Positions 24,328-53,514 of a stretch of 64,000 nucleotides of DNA are shown piece after piece (within the stretch, counting starts at the first letter, position 1; each line of letters opens with the position of its first letter). Both the position numbers and the translations under genes were made by a program. The notes below the pieces were generated by a model. That model ran no database searches, was not told the origin of the DNA, and saw only the letters and a list, made by a program, of their open reading frames with translations. The DNA is from Klebsiella pneumoniae. Its GTDB lineage: Bacteria; Myxococcota_A; UBA796; SXON01. The stretch covers positions 118,608 through 182,607 of the forward strand of contig CAMAWH010000003.1 in assembly GCA_945861635.1 (NCBI GenBank), given 5' to 3'.

Positions 24328-26694
24328 CTACCGCCGCTCCTTCTGCGCGGCCTCCAACTCCGTCAAACGCTTCTCCAACGCCTCGACTTTGGCCGCCAGC
24401 TCGTTGGGCGTGGCGGATGGCGTCTGTTTGGCGCGAATGTGCTGGATCGCGGTTAGCGCGGCGGACGCGAGTTCCGCGATTGTTTCCTCGCGCCGAAATG
24501 ACTCCAAAACCGGGATACTCCGGTCATCACCGGCGGCACTCAACACGCCCACGGCACCCTCCCTCCCCCGTTGGTCAAGGTCCGTCAGCAGGGGTTCGGC
24601 GGCGCGCGCAACCCGTGACTTCGCCGCGTCCCGCGCGCTGCCGACGTCCATCCGGCCTGCAATTCGACTCGCGGCGCGAACGCGGGCAAGTCGGAGCCGC
24701 CCGGGACCGTTCAGGGTCAGGAGCACGGTCAGGTCGGCGAGCGTGCCGTGATCCCCGAGGGCGTCCGCTGCGCGCGCCGCGAGCCAGTCGTCCCCCAGCG
24801 AACCGGGCACCAACCGGCTGCGGGCGGCAAGAACGGCCTGCGCGGGGGCGAGGCGCGCCATGGCGCCCAACGCGGCCGCGCGGACATCGATGTTGGGGTC
24901 GCGCGAAAATCTCTCCTGAATCGTCGGCATCGCTGCCGTGCTCACACCCTCTCCGAGGGCGGTAATGGCAGCTTCTCGGACACGCGCATCGGGATCGGCG
25001 GCGAGCAAGACCAACGTCGCGGGCACGCGTTGTTTACCGAGTGCCCGGATGACGGCCAACCGCAGATCGATGGGCCCGGCCAGCGCGAGCGGGAGCAGCG
25101 CGGCAGAATGGTCCGTCTCCGCCAGCGCATCGATGGCCGCGAGCACGGCAAACGGTTGCTCGGAACGAAGTTGCGCCTCCCACATCGCCGGATCCTGCTC
25201 GTGAACCACCGAGGCGAGCACGCCGGAGCGCGGATCGAACGCGACGTACGTTGCGATGCCCTCGACGGATACCTCCACATCCTCTCCTTCCAACCACGCG
25301 GTTACCGTCCGCGGACCCATCTCTGTTCCGACTTCGACCTCGACCGGCAGGGCATACGGCGGGTGGGAATCATCCAGGGTCTGGCGCACGGTAACCGTGG
25401 TCCACCCGTCCTTTACGCGCGACGTCACCGTGAGCGCCGGGACGGTCGGCAATTCCACCCATTGCTGGAAGAACCAGCCCAACTCCCGCCCGCTCACCAC
25501 CTCCATCGCGCTGCGCAGGTCATCGGTGTCCACCGTCTTATGGGCGTTGTCCGCGACGTACCGACGGATGCCGCGCCAAAATGTGTCCTCGCCGAGGAGG
25601 GTGCGCAGCATGTGCAACACGCTCGCACCCTTGGCGTAGACGTTGTGACTCGTCGCGGCGTCCGGCAGGAAATAGCGCGCGGCGAGCGATTCGGCCTCAA
25701 GTGAGCCTCGAAAGCGGCTTCGCATCCCATTGGCGTAGAACCAGGCGCCACGGTGCGTCGCGTGCCAATCGGCTTCCATGAACTCGGCGAAGCCCTCATT
25801 GAGCCAAAGCTCCCGCCAATCTCGACACGTCAACAGGTCCCCAAACCACTGATGCGCCAGCTCGTGAGATACAATGCGCTCAATCGCGATAGAGCGCGTC
25901 GCGTCAGGCCCGTAGAGCAGCCACTCGGCTTCTACCGTCGCGGAGGTGTTCTCCATGCCGGCGTAGAGGAACCGCTGGACGAATACCTGCCGATAGGTGC
26001 CCCATGGAAAAGGCACGCCCGTCCGCTCGGCAAAGTGAGCGAACATTGCCGGAAGATCGCGCGTCACACCGTCCGTCCGGCCACCGGGTGCCGCGTGAAC
26101 GATCGCACCGGGCGCCGGCGTCGCCTCATACGGGCCCGCCGCGACCATGACCAGGTAGTTCGCCAGATCTGTGCCGCTGTTGGTAATGACGGTCCAGCCC
26201 TCCGGGACGTGAAATGTGCCCGTGTACGCGAAGCGATCGTTGGGATGATCCCAGCCTGGGAACCAATACCGATTGTCGTTGGCTTCTCCTTGGGAAAACA
26301 CTTCCGCATACCGATCCATCGGGGGCGCGCGGAAGTGCAGCCCAGAGCGCGGTGTTGCCGAATAGTGCAGAATCACCGTCATCGATTGGTCACGCAGCCC
26401 GTCGGGGACGGGAATGTGAATCGCCGGGCCGGTGATTCGAAACGCCGCCGCAACGCCGTCGACCGTGACCGATGCAATCCGCAATGCGACGCCGTCGAGC
26501 ACAAGCTCCCCCGGACCCAGCCGGTTCACCGTCCATGTTGCCGTGCCGGCAATCGTCCTGGAGGTAGGATCGACCGTAAGATCGAGCGCGAGTGCCTGCA
26601 TGTCGAACACCCGATCCGGGGCAACGACGTTGCGACGATCCGGAGCAATTGCAGGGGTTCCGCCGGACAGCGCAGATGCAACGAGCAGCAGCAT
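24328..26694 (-). CDS. M1-family metallopeptidase with HEAT-like C-terminal domain
   Basis: 788 residues with a short signal (MLLLVASALSGG). The M1 aminopeptidase core has the exopeptidase-like GMENTSAT motif (about 246), the zinc site HELAHQW at 277-283 and third ligand Glu300 in WLNEGFAEF. The C-terminal half contains HEAT-type repeats (LAVIRALGKQRVPATLVLLAADPDARVREAAITALGEG) and a coiled-coil end (KVEALEKRLTELEAAQ). The segment between the N-terminal beta domain and the catalytic domain is shorter than in typical members. Periplasmic or secreted peptide hydrolysis is expected. Confidence 0.92.
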   Translation of the reverse strand: MLLLVASALSGGTPAIAPDRRNVVAPDRVFDMQALALDLTVDPTSRTIAGTATWTVNRLGPGELVLDGVALRIASVTVDGVAAAFRITGPAIHIPVPDGLRDQSMTVILHYSATPRSGLHFRAPPMDRYAEVFSQGEANDNRYWFPGWDHPNDRFAYTGTFHVPEGWTVITNSGTDLANYLVMVAAGPYEATPAPGAIVHAAPGGRTDGVTRDLPAMFAHFAERTGVPFPWGTYRQVFVQRFLYAGMENTSATVEAEWLLYGPDATRSIAIERIVSHELAHQWFGDLLTCRDWRELWLNEGFAEFMEADWHATHRGAWFYANGMRSRFRGSLEAESLAARYFLPDAATSHNVYAKGASVLHMLRTLLGEDTFWRGIRRYVADNAHKTVDTDDLRSAMEVVSGRELGWFFQQWVELPTVPALTVTSRVKDGWTTVTVRQTLDDSHPPYALPVEVEVGTEMGPRTVTAWLEGEDVEVSVEGIATYVAFDPRSGVLASVVHEQDPAMWEAQLRSEQPFAVLAAIDALAETDHSAALLPLALAGPIDLRLAVIRALGKQRVPATLVLLAADPDARVREAAITALGEGVSTAAMPTIQERFSRDPNIDVRAAALGAMARLAPAQAVLAARSRLVPGSLGDDWLAARAADALGDHGTLADLTVLLTLNGPGRLRLARVRAASRIAGRMDVGSARDAAKSRVARAAEPLLTDLDQRGREGAVGVLSAAGDDRSIPVLESFRREETIAELASAALTAIQHIRAKQTPSATPNELAAKVEALEKRLTELEAAQKERR

Positions 26695-48191: not shown

Positions 48192-49886
48192 CTACTTGTC
48201 CGTCAAGCGCGTCACGGTGTCGAAGGGAGTGCCGGGCCCGCGCACCAGCATGCCGTGGCAGCGCTCGACAAAGATCTCGGCGCCGCGATCTTCCGGACAC
48301 GCCGCGAGACAGCGCGAGAAACACTCCAGCGCTTCCGGAAAGCGCGCCGCCCACCAATGTTCCAGACCCGACGCAAAAACCGTGCGCGTCGCTTTCTTCG
48401 TTTCGCGTCGCGAGTCCGGCTCGCCGTCCAGCACCTCGTAGATCGTCAGCGGCTCAGAGCGACCCACCGGCACCACACGATCCACCGCGCGCAGGGCGAA
48501 GCGACCGGAATCCGCCAAGCGGGACACGGTTTCACTGCTCGCGAGCAGGGAAGCCCCATACGCTTTCGTCATGCCTTCGATCCGCGCCGCGACGTTGGTG
48601 CCATCGCCAATGACCCCGCGATCCATCCGATCATGCCCGCCGATGACGCCGACCATGAGCGATGCCGTGTTGACGCCGATGCCGATGCGGATGGGCAAAT
48701 CGCCCTCGGCGGCCCGCTCTCGGTTGTACTCGTCGACGGCCGCGAGCATGGCAAGTGCGCCGCGCAACGCGTCGTCGGCGGCACCCGGAAACAGCGCCAT
48801 GATCCCATCACCCAGGAACTGGTTGACGTACCCGCCGTGTCCGTGGATCGCTGGTTCCATCCAGCGCAAATAACGGTTGACGAAGGCGAAGGACCGTGCC
48901 GGCCCCATCTGCTCGCACATCGTCGTAAACCCACGAATGTCGGCGAACAACACGCTGGTTTCGCGTTGCACCTGATCGCCAAGTCCGACGCTGAGGATGT
49001 CCGGTTTTCCCAGTTGTTCGAGGAATTGCTTCGGCAAGAACCGCTCGTACGCCCGCGTGAGTCGCGTCTGCGTTTCCAGAGAGGCGCGCAGACTCTCATA
49101 CAACCGCGCGTTTTCGATGGAAATCGCCGCTTGCGAGGCCAGCATGTTGACAACCCCCGTCCGCGCCGCGGTGAACGCGCCCGTCGCGAGAGTATTTTCG
49201 AGGTACATCACCCCCACGAGGCGAGCCCCGTTGATGAGCGGCAGCGCCATGGCCGAGCGCGGGGACGACGCGTTTCGAAAGAAACGAACATCCTTGGAAA
49301 CATCGTCGAGCACCACGGGCTCGCGGGTACGCGCGACGTAGTTCATCAGGGGACCGGCATGCGGCATCGCGTCGGCGGCGGCCAGTCCGCCCACGCTCTC
49401 GATCGTGACGCCTCCGTCAAGCGCTTTCGCCATGCCCGTCAGTTTCCCGGACTCGTCGAGTGCGAGCAGGCCACCGTCGGCGCCGGCGTTTTCCACGACG
49501 ATCGACACCAACCGACGCAGCAGTTCCTTCAGGTCCAACTCACTGGAGATGACCCGCGCGGTCTTTGCGACGCTCTCGAGATCCAGCGCCCCGCCGTCCA
49601 CAACGGTGGTCACCTCCGTGGCAAGCGGCGCCGGCGCCGGCAACAACCTCGGGTCGAAGCCGCGGAGTTCCTCGGCAAGGCGCTCGAGCCCGGGCAACCG
49701 CGCCCCCGCTCCCCACTCGATCCAGCTTCGGCGCGCCTCGGTGAAGTACGCGATGGCGCTGCGTTGCTGGCCCCGGGCCAGAAAGTGCCGCGACGCAAGC
49801 TCAAGCGCGAGCGCATGATCGGCGCGTAGCCCTTTGATCGTGCGCGTGCCGAATCGCGTCGTCGTACGCCCGCACCGCGCGTCCAT
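48192..49886 (-). pseudogene. C-terminal half (TPR-GAF-class III cyclase) of a split kinase-cyclase
   Basis: Reads TPR end (KGLRADHALALELASRHF, IAYFTEARRSWIEWG), a GAF domain (ISSELDLKELLRRLVSIVVE to LASQAAISIENARLY) and a class III nucleotidyl cyclase: FADIRGF metal Asp, FLGDGIMALF second Asp, GTNVAARIEG transition-state Asn/Arg. The Lys expected before GDG in adenylate cyclases is Gln (YVNQFLGDG). The first ~18 residues of this ORF are out-of-frame kinase sequence. In relatives this is the end of one protein with the kinase ORF upstream. A +1 shift at 49830-49836 separates them, so the ORF has no independent start and may be a broken gene or an assembly error. Confidence 0.85.
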
Positions 49887-52800
49887 CGGCCCCGTCCAGC
49901 GAGGCCAGCTCCGCGTCGAGCAGATGCACCTTGGCTCGATAGTTCGCCTCGCACTGCTGGGCGCGCTTCCGCATGCGCGTCAACACCTTCTTGACCTTGG
50001 ACCGCGGAAGTTTCCGACCGGCACGGGCGAGAGCGACGTCGTTCAGCGCGCCGAACCAATGAAAGATCTCCAGTTCGGCCGCGCCGGGAATGTTCGCCGT
50101 GTAGGACGCCGCGCGCACGAAGGACGCTCCCGCCTCGTCATGCCGACCAAACCAGTAGGCGAGCATACCCTCGTATACGTGCGCGCACGCGAGTCCGCTT
50201 CGATCCTGCGAAGTCTCCAACTCGCGCACATACGCGGTGCGCGAAATGATCGCTCCGTCGAGCACCCACGGAAGGGGCGCCTCTCCCCGCAAGTTTGCCG
50301 CAACCTGAGCGATCAGCTGGACCGCCCGCATCGGGCGGATCTGGCCGATCTTTCGACAGAGGTCGATCTCGTGCAGGCAGCGTTCCTCAAGATTTGGCAA
50401 CAGCCAGCCCGCGTGCAGCGCATACGAGGCAATGCCCAGGGAGCACAGCCCTGCCCGCTCGGCGTCTCCCGCAGCGAGGCAGCCGCGCTGCGCCTTTTCG
50501 TACAGCGGCGACAGCTCCGCGTACGGATGCGTGCGCGCGAAGACGAAGGCGAGCCACAGGACCTCGACGGTGGCGTACTCCGACACCGCGTCGAACCGCT
50601 CGACGACATCGTGCGAGAATTTTCCGACGAGCTCCGCGCCCGGAATATCATCGACTACCGCCGACAACAGCAATGCATACCCGGCAAAGCCGTACGCACA
50701 CTTGGCATGCACTCCGCGTTTGACGGCCAAGCGTACCAGACGACAAAACAGGATGCCCATGAGTTCGGCGGACGCATAGTAGGCCGGCGCTCCGGCGAAC
50801 GCGATCAGGCGGAAGATCGCAATCGTCTCGGCATCGCGCACCTCTGGTAATGCCCTCAGATCCGCCAACGTCATGCCACGCATCGCCATTTTCGTCCGCA
50901 CGAATTCCAGCAGCACCTGCGCGGAATTGGGCCGAATCGGAAGGGCTACGCCGAGCCACTTCAACGCCTCCAATGCGAGGCGCAGCGCCTCGGGATTTTC
51001 GTTGCGCGTCAGGTGATCGCGCACCCGAATCTCGTGCAGCGCAACCCGATCCATCACCGTCTTTGCGCGTGGGCAGGCAGCATCGAGAAATACCGTTGGA
51101 AGCGTGCGCCCAGGGGCCAGCAGGGCGGCTTCCGCCGCGTCCAGGGTGAGGCCGAATGCCAGGGCGTAGTCACGCTCCCACGCGTCCGGCGCGAGAAGGG
51201 AGATACCCGCTTCGAGATAGGTAAGCGCAGCGTCAAAGGCTGCTGATGCGCGCGCGCGCCGACCCGCCGAATGGTTCAGCCGGGCGACCCGGCCGCGCTC
51301 CACCGGGTCGGTCAGGAACTCCAGCCCCAGATTGAGTTGGGCGACAATCGCGAACACCCGGTCTCCCGGGTCGTCCGCGCCCTCTTCTGCGAGAAGCAAC
51401 CGCCCGACGCCGACGTGGGTGCGCCGCCTCTCCCCCTCTGGAAGTTGTTCATAGGCGGCCTGCTGAATCCGCCCGTGCGCGAACTGGAACCGGGCGCGGC
51501 CTTCCTTCCGCTGCAGTTCGTTCCACGCGCCCCCCACCGGGTCCAGGAGCCCGGCTTCCACGGCCGGGCGCAGCGCGACGGCAGCCGAAGCGACCGTTTC
51601 ATCTCCGGCAACGGCCAACGTGAGCAGATCGAAACCGTTGCCGATGCACGCTGCGAGCGAGAGGATGCGACGAGTCTCCGGCTCCAGCACCCCAAGTCTG
51701 CCAGCGAGCAAATCGACGACATTGTCACTCACCGGCACGGCGTCGATTGCGTCGAGTTGCCACACCCACGAGCGACTGCGCGGATCGAAACGGATCTGAC
51801 CGGTGTCCCACAGCGAGCGCAGGAAAGCCCGCACAAAAAACGGGTTTCCACCTGTCTTCCGGACCACCCGGCCCGCAAGCGCAACGGCATCCTCCGCATC
51901 ACACGCGAGCGTGTCGCGAATCAGGTGCGCAACCTCCACGGCGGTGAGTGGGCCGAGCGTCACCTTGCGCAACACCGCAGCCGGCAGGCGGCCCAGCATC
52001 TGATGGAGCGGATGCGTGGCATCCACGTCCTCGCTCCGCCACGCCAACGTGACGATGGGCGGCGTGCCCTCCCAATCCGTCAACAGACTCTCGATGAGCC
52101 CCAACGAGGCGAGGTCGGCCCAATGGGTGTCGTCCAGGAACAGCACGAGAGGGTGGTCCGGCGCGTGGAACGCGCGGAGAAACGCGCGCACGACGACGTG
52201 CTGCCGAAGGCGGGCTTCGGCCGGAGGGAGCGACTGCACGGGTGCCGGCGTGCCGAGCAGGAGCACCACGTCAGGCACGAGCTCTGCGACCAGGCCCGAA
52301 TTGGCCCCAACGGCGGCGTCAAGCCGCGCACGCCACGAGGCGACGTCCGCGTCTCCGTGAGCGAGCACGCGCCGAACCAATTCGGTCATGACGTCCGCGA
52401 TCGCCTGATAGGGCTGCGCGCGGCGAAGGCGGTCAAACTTCGCGCTGACCAGCCAGCCGCCCGCCTCCGCGAGATGGCGATCCAGTTCACCCACCACGGC
52501 CGACTTTCCGATGCCGGCAGGCCCGACCACCGCGAGCGCCACCGCCTCCCCCCGCTTCGCCCGCGCGAGGCTGTCCACCAGCGCCTGCACGGCAGCATCG
52601 CGACCGTACATCCGCTCGGGAAGCGAGAAGCGCGCGGATCGGTCCGCGTCTCCGAGGGCGAACAACGGCACCGCACCACGCGCCCCCCAAAGATGCGCGA
52701 CGCGGTCGAGGTCCTCGGCCAGGCCATCGGCGGACTGATATCGATCATCCGCCATTTTTTCAAGCAGCCGCATCACGATCTGCGCGAGGACGGGCGGGAT

Positions 52801-53514
52801 GTCGGGGCGAAGTGCGGCCAGAGGCGTTGGTGTTCGCGCGATGGTGGCGTGTACCAACTCGAGCGGATCACGCGCCAGGAACGGCAACCGACCCGCGAGG
52901 ATTCGATAGTAGGTCGCGCCGAGCGCGTAGAGGTCGCTGCGGCGATCGAGCGGTCGGTTCATTCGCCCGGTCTGCTCGGGCGCCAGATACCCCGGCGTTC
53001 CCTCCAGACGCGCGATCGGAACGGCGTCCGCGGACTGCCGAGTGAGGCGGGTCGCGAGGTCGAAATCGATGAGCGTGGCCGTACCGGTGCCCGGGTCAAC
53101 CACGAAGTTCGACGGATTGACGTCGCGGTGGACGACGCCAGCCTCATGCAGCCCCGCGAGTGATCGGGCCAGACGAGGAGCGAGCGTCATGAACGCGCCG
53201 AGACCCATCGCCGCCCGACAATGCTCCGCAAGCGAGACGGGACCCGCGTCGTCCAGTTCGAGGATCGGACCCAGTGCCGTTTCGTGCATCGCGATGGCGC
53301 GCACGACGCCGGGCGCGTTCAGGCCGCGAAGCATCCGAAATTCCTGTTCAAGTCGTCCGACCGCGCGTGGATCCGGCCGACCTGTTGCCAGTCCCTTCAG
53401 CACGACGCTCGCCCCGTCCGACACGCGCACGCCCCGGTGTACGTGCGTCCGCGCGCTCCGGTAGATCGATTCGACCTGACGGAAACCGGCAAGTTCGACC
53501 GTCGGGTCTGGCAT
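49801..53514 (-). CDS. Ser/Thr kinase-AAA ATPase-TPR protein, N-terminal half of the split gene
   Basis: 1237 residues. Eukaryotic-like kinase at about 10-280: VVLKGL, HRDVNPSNF, IDFDLATR (DFD for DFG, usual in this family), GTPGYLAPEQTGR. ATPase of the PknK/AAA16 type at about 300-700: Walker A VGPAGIGKSAVV, Walker B LVLFLDDTHWAD. Then a long TPR array to YDDAIRHAHDQ, after which the frame degenerates (RATRRSCARA) and stops. Removing one A from CAAAGGG continues straight into the cyclase ORF downstream, giving a ~1770-residue sensor kinase. Cytosolic. It would couple protein phosphorylation to cyclic nucleotide output. Confidence 0.9.
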   Translation of the reverse strand: MPDPTVELAGFRQVESIYRSARTHVHRGVRVSDGASVVLKGLATGRPDPRAVGRLEQEFRMLRGLNAPGVVRAIAMHETALGPILELDDAGPVSLAEHCRAAMGLGAFMTLAPRLARSLAGLHEAGVVHRDVNPSNFVVDPGTGTATLIDFDLATRLTRQSADAVPIARLEGTPGYLAPEQTGRMNRPLDRRSDLYALGATYYRILAGRLPFLARDPLELVHATIARTPTPLAALRPDIPPVLAQIVMRLLEKMADDRYQSADGLAEDLDRVAHLWGARGAVPLFALGDADRSARFSLPERMYGRDAAVQALVDSLARAKRGEAVALAVVGPAGIGKSAVVGELDRHLAEAGGWLVSAKFDRLRRAQPYQAIADVMTELVRRVLAHGDADVASWRARLDAAVGANSGLVAELVPDVVLLLGTPAPVQSLPPAEARLRQHVVVRAFLRAFHAPDHPLVLFLDDTHWADLASLGLIESLLTDWEGTPPIVTLAWRSEDVDATHPLHQMLGRLPAAVLRKVTLGPLTAVEVAHLIRDTLACDAEDAVALAGRVVRKTGGNPFFVRAFLRSLWDTGQIRFDPRSRSWVWQLDAIDAVPVSDNVVDLLAGRLGVLEPETRRILSLAACIGNGFDLLTLAVAGDETVASAAVALRPAVEAGLLDPVGGAWNELQRKEGRARFQFAHGRIQQAAYEQLPEGERRRTHVGVGRLLLAEEGADDPGDRVFAIVAQLNLGLEFLTDPVERGRVARLNHSAGRRARASAAFDAALTYLEAGISLLAPDAWERDYALAFGLTLDAAEAALLAPGRTLPTVFLDAACPRAKTVMDRVALHEIRVRDHLTRNENPEALRLALEALKWLGVALPIRPNSAQVLLEFVRTKMAMRGMTLADLRALPEVRDAETIAIFRLIAFAGAPAYYASAELMGILFCRLVRLAVKRGVHAKCAYGFAGYALLLSAVVDDIPGAELVGKFSHDVVERFDAVSEYATVEVLWLAFVFARTHPYAELSPLYEKAQRGCLAAGDAERAGLCSLGIASYALHAGWLLPNLEERCLHEIDLCRKIGQIRPMRAVQLIAQVAANLRGEAPLPWVLDGAIISRTAYVRELETSQDRSGLACAHVYEGMLAYWFGRHDEAGASFVRAASYTANIPGAAELEIFHWFGALNDVALARAGRKLPRSKVKKVLTRMRKRAQQCEANYRAKVHLLDAELASLDGADGRAVRAYDDAIRHAHDQRATRRSCARA
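49830..49836 (-). other. Single-base frameshift site in the kinase-cyclase gene
   Basis: The minus strand reads CAAAGGG. The kinase frame reads CAA AGG GCT and soon stops. Skipping one base gives CAA GGG CTA CGC, i.e. AHDQGLRADHALALELA, exactly the TPR sequence expected in this protein family. AGG is a rare Arg codon in GC-rich genomes, so programmed +1 slippage is conceivable, but an indel or read error in the A/G run is the simpler reading. Confidence 0.75.

Follow-up and report, generated by a model that had tools for sequence, protein, structure and literature searches.

A giant kinase-ATPase-GAF-cyclase gene apparently split by one surplus base, most likely a young and non-programmed lesion

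Background

The frame change described here shares its direction and its size with the programmed +1 shift of prfB, which takes place at the motif YTT_TRA_C. Isolated frame changes have received a different reading: in the GeneTack survey, singleton frameshifted genes confirmed by homology were taken to be likely sequencing errors or indel mutations (PMC3711429). With regard to domain architecture, the best NCBIfam match of the upstream reading frame (ORF1) is the TOMM system kinase/cyclase fusion protein (TIGR03903, E 5.4e-40). The match has its best stretch over the ATPase part and reaches 137.2 bits against a cut-off of 705.75, so that ORF1 is not a member of that family. A literature search on the architecture returned no match.

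An earlier sequence-only reading of the locus had proposed that removal of one A at a CAAAGGG heptamer joins two ORFs into a protein of about 1770 residues, with the expected TPR sequence running across the junction, and that the downstream half has no start of its own. It left three explanations standing: a fresh pseudogene, a sequence error, or a +1 shift at a rare AGG codon.

Results

Two reading frames with the domains of one signalling protein

The window, by which we mean the whole stretch of 64,000 nucleotides that was analysed, carries ORF1 on its minus strand, followed one frame over by a GAF-class III cyclase frame, ORF2. The lesion-bearing gene measures 5323 nt, and its features are as follows.

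49801..53514, minus strand: ORF1, 1237 aa, with N-terminal protein kinase, AAA_16 ATPase and helical-repeat region
52729..53445, minus strand: protein kinase domain, ORF1 residues 24-262 (Pfam PF00069, E 4.3e-24)
52069..52611, minus strand: AAA_16 ATPase domain, ORF1 residues 302-482 (Pfam PF13191, E 8.9e-33)
49830..49836, minus strand: CAAAGGG, the one-base frame change, located independently by homology and by codon usage
48192..49886, minus strand: ORF2, 564 aa from its first ATG, at 49886
49113..49538, minus strand: GAF domain, ORF2 residues 117-258 (Pfam PF13185, E 6.3e-16; PF01590, E 2e-15)
48462..48965, minus strand: adenylate/guanylate cyclase catalytic domain, ORF2 residues 308-475 (Pfam PF00211, E 2.3e-12)

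The order kinase, AAA_16, GAF and output domain is thus present in one gene, but across two frames, and not in the single continuous reading frame expected of kinase-AAA_16-repeat-GAF-output proteins. The joined ORFs make up a protein of this known modular signalling type. Walker A and Walker B are both present in the AAA_16 domain. The cyclase domain has both metal-binding Asp residues and the Asn/Arg of GDGTNVAAR, and among solved chains it lies nearest to those of bacterial adenylate cyclases such as 6fht. In the alignment the kinase has HRD, with DFD in place of DFG. This DFD (window 53040-53075) is common to the two nearest homologues, and is therefore an inherited subfamily trait; we looked for decayed active sites and found none. 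The region between the ATPase and GAF domains is probably helical-repeat-like, and "TPR" describes its look, since no Pfam TPR model matched the window gene at E<=0.001.

A one-base frame change at CAAAGGG

ORF1 is homologous to related proteins through residue 1227, beyond which it reads 10 residues out of frame (RATRRSCARA) before it meets a stop. The homology of ORF2 begins at 49832 and runs downwards through the end of the helical repeats, the GAF domain and the class III nucleotidyl cyclase. Homology therefore follows the first frame to Q1227 and resumes one base on, at the G of GLRADHALALELA, with no residue lost. The joined protein has 1227 + 546 = 1773 aa, which bears out the earlier claim of a fusion of about 1770 residues by removal of one base. 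The accompanying claim about the junction stands as regards continuous homology across the join, but not as regards a TPR recognisable by Pfam. The split is not a chance juxtaposition, since ORF1 and ORF2 match different parts of one and the same set of homologous proteins. A Viterbi scan of codon usage, blind to homology, placed the switch at 49824-49834, and the downstream half retains its full coding signal. CAAAGGG occurs once within the 5323-nt gene, and the only homopolymers at the site are A3 and G3. The residue aligned directly after the join is G in 11 of 18 homologues and R in none, which makes A a likelier surplus base than G.

The junction is crossed in one frame by 18 homologous loci, and CAAAGGG is absent from all of them. 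When the junction region was searched against the order, 23 of 63 genomes gave matches, each of them one open frame except the window's own locus; the search revealed no homologue split at the same site. A single frame is likewise kept across the junction in loci from Nodosilinea, an anammox bacterium and others, and a scan of genome contigs returned distant relatives only. Among the closest matches, G012:C125 covers residues 5-1773 of the joined protein in one frame. ORF1 and ORF2 are 51% and 53% identical to G001:C112, which matches ORF2 over its first 252 homologous residues only, and its output domain consequently differs. The sequence-only reading had held that in-frame relatives, together with reads showing a homopolymer error, would speak against a programmed shift; the comparison with relatives supplies the first half of this, as every relative that covers the junction is in frame.

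Tests of a programmed +1 frameshift

A programmed +1 shift at CAA_AGG_G would yield two products, a short kinase and a long kinase-cyclase. The offset is exactly one base, and the kinase and cyclase halves are otherwise intact, both of which would suit such a mechanism. So would the A-site codon AGG, although it is only moderately rare (534 of 267,197 codons, i.e., 2.0 per 1000). Against the mechanism, the genome codes for its exact cognate, tRNA-Arg(CCT), at L086:3803-3879. This qualifies the earlier description of AGG as rare, nor is the A site left vacant by a stop codon. Nine in-frame CAA_AGG pairs occur in 852 kb. One of them is the full heptamer CAA_AGG_G, in phase within an open frame that, from its sequence, we take to be queA, and this queA-like frame goes on normally past the heptamer. 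The 141-nt RNA fold around the site is ordinary (z = -0.82 relative to shuffled sequence), the Rfam search gave no match, and no Shine-Dalgarno-like stretch was visible by eye directly upstream of the site. Neither the position and direction of the frame change nor the slippery motif is conserved among the relatives described above, and the remaining breaks in the family lie elsewhere (see below). On conservation, the encoded tRNA, the queA-like control and the RNA fold, we reject a programmed shift as very improbable, and the corresponding claim of the sequence-only reading is left unsupported. A more elaborate version is just as hard to credit: a +1 slip confined to this lineage would give a short kinase-ATPase alongside a long kinase-cyclase in minor amount, and the paralogue on contig 36 would be turned on and off as its G8 run changes in length, making both outputs tunable. 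Were a programmed shift true, a chromosomal signalling gene would be recoded, which is a rare occurrence; nothing that we found favours such a shift.

Tests of two separate genes

The locus could instead comprise two genes that overlap by 86 nt, with translation of the second beginning at ATG 49886 or depending on coupling. This ATG is in frame and opens ORF2, and the claim that the downstream half has no start of its own is therefore inexact. However, the bases upstream of it (CTCGCTGGACGGGGCCG) are weakly Shine-Dalgarno-like at best and form no clear ribosome-binding site. Neither the first 18 residues of ORF2 nor the last 10 of ORF1 have a counterpart in homologues, and the split falls within the repeat region and not between domains. 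We regard two genes as highly unlikely, and likewise consider an independent cyclase protein made from ORF2 possible but unlikely.

Other family members broken at different places

The joined protein was compared with 26 further loci of the order, of which a fragment (L186) was left out, giving n = 25. Five of the 25 are broken, each at a different place, and they include the only full paralogue in this genome, on contig G000:C36. The position of its break is as follows.

G000:C36 near 24856-24863 (L047 around 9859): G8 run, frame change near residue 407

Mutation, error or a phase-variable tract could each account for this G8 break. G017:C20 (L050) has a nonsense TGA at a conserved Trp, residue 585; G040:C175 (L177) changes frame near residue 220; and G013:C14 (L187) has both a deletion and a frame change, located between residues 1458 and 1585. 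G049:C139 (L183) contains several frame changes and looks like an old, decayed pseudogene. The rpoB and rpoC genes of the order served as a control and showed one internal break in about 70 genes. The excess of family breaks over this control has p ~0.008, calculated with rough gene lengths and without the window locus, which was omitted since it had been chosen for being broken. Lesions so scattered, and more frequent than in essential genes, point to gene loss and not to a conserved switch. Judged from the sequences, the pattern would be pseudogenisation of dispensable genes.

The single control break is in G030, where rpoB (G030:C81:6915-11034) appears to be split into open frames of 887 and 632 aa. 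Since rpoB is essential, this split points to a sequence error in the G030 draft.

Frame changes in the source assembly

The source genome is a draft of 5.58 Mb in 128 contigs and is 88% complete. A scan of 1.64 Mb of it flagged four abnormal same-strand frame changes, of which the window locus alone was shown to have homology on both sides. In an earlier version, the scan picked up 115 of 200 one-base insertions that had been simulated (57% sensitivity). The scan also failed to flag the break in the paralogue, so the true count of changes is higher. Even so, four changes in 1.64 Mb indicate that the assembly is not rich in indels, and we rejected the idea that it is riddled with them, bearing in mind that about 43% of the simulated insertions were missed. 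G8/C8 runs number 38, of which 32 are coding. Three of the 38 are near a same-strand frame switch, and one of the coding runs near a switch is that of the paralogue; long runs are thus not broken as a rule.

Two coding segments, at G000:C1:164449 and G000:C4:56251 (L062 and L083), follow a same-strand neighbour and have no ATG, GTG or TTG close to where they begin. They begin like signal peptides, and unusual starts or small lesions are therefore possible. An abnormal same-strand frame change at G000:C6:90924-90960 (L137) falls in a low-complexity Arg/Asp/Gly-rich stretch and is probably a codon-usage artefact of the scan.

Discussion

We propose, with a probability of roughly 0.94, that the locus is an ancestral gene of about 1773 aa with a single surplus base at CAAAGGG and no rescue by a programmed mechanism. 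The ancestral product would have been kinase - AAA_16 ATPase - helical repeat - GAF - class III cyclase, its frame now being broken by the surplus base. What appears to be a gene pair would thus be a single signalling gene of a known kind that carries one lesion. The significance of this is mostly one of annotation, together with the observation that a family of giant genes breaks repeatedly and at scattered places.

Between them, the fresh pseudogene and the sequence error of the sequence-only reading take nearly all of the probability, and the census of broken relatives against rpoB/rpoC favours the pseudogene. A real, recent frameshift mutation is likely, and would leave either a young pseudogene or an allele reduced to its kinase-ATPase part. 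Such a mutation agrees with the excess and scatter of breaks in the family, with the family member that has several lesions, with the scarcity of frame breaks elsewhere in this assembly and with a site that has no long homopolymer. The downstream half, however, shows no decay, so the mutation, if real, must be very young. If the base is present in the cell, the gene would be a very young pseudogene or a loss-of-output allele, belonging to a frequently lost family. Its product would presumably be a kinase-ATPase ending 10 residues past the lesion, with little or none of the cyclase half.

An error confined to the consensus or assembly, with an intact gene and the full-length fusion made by the cell, is unlikely but deserves more weight than a programmed shift. 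It would fit the draft state of the genome and a 5.3-kb gene in which no second lesion was found, and the G030 rpoB break is taken as evidence that such drafts contain errors of this kind. Against it, abnormal frame changes are scarce in the 1.64 Mb scanned, the site has runs of A3 and G3 only, and long runs are not broken as a rule, one of the 32 coding G8/C8 runs near a frame switch being that of the paralogue. The few breaks in the assembly, the short runs at the site and the excess in the family together favour a genuine mutation. Our assessment is that the lesion is most likely non-programmed, real and young.

Among known genes, the closest counterparts are two in-frame fusions. G012:C125, an open frame of 1798 aa, and G001:C112, one of 1891 aa, have the same order of kinase, ATPase, repeats and GAF, and G012:C125 also ends in a cyclase. 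Identity to the window gene is 42-55% over both halves, but unlike it, their frames are uninterrupted. Unlike prfB, the window site has no stop codon, no conserved site and no visible Shine-Dalgarno-like stimulator (PMC3711429). A further parallel is with the GeneTack singletons, from which we note no difference (PMC3711429): like them, the window gene is broken once, in one genome only, and its homology is continuous.
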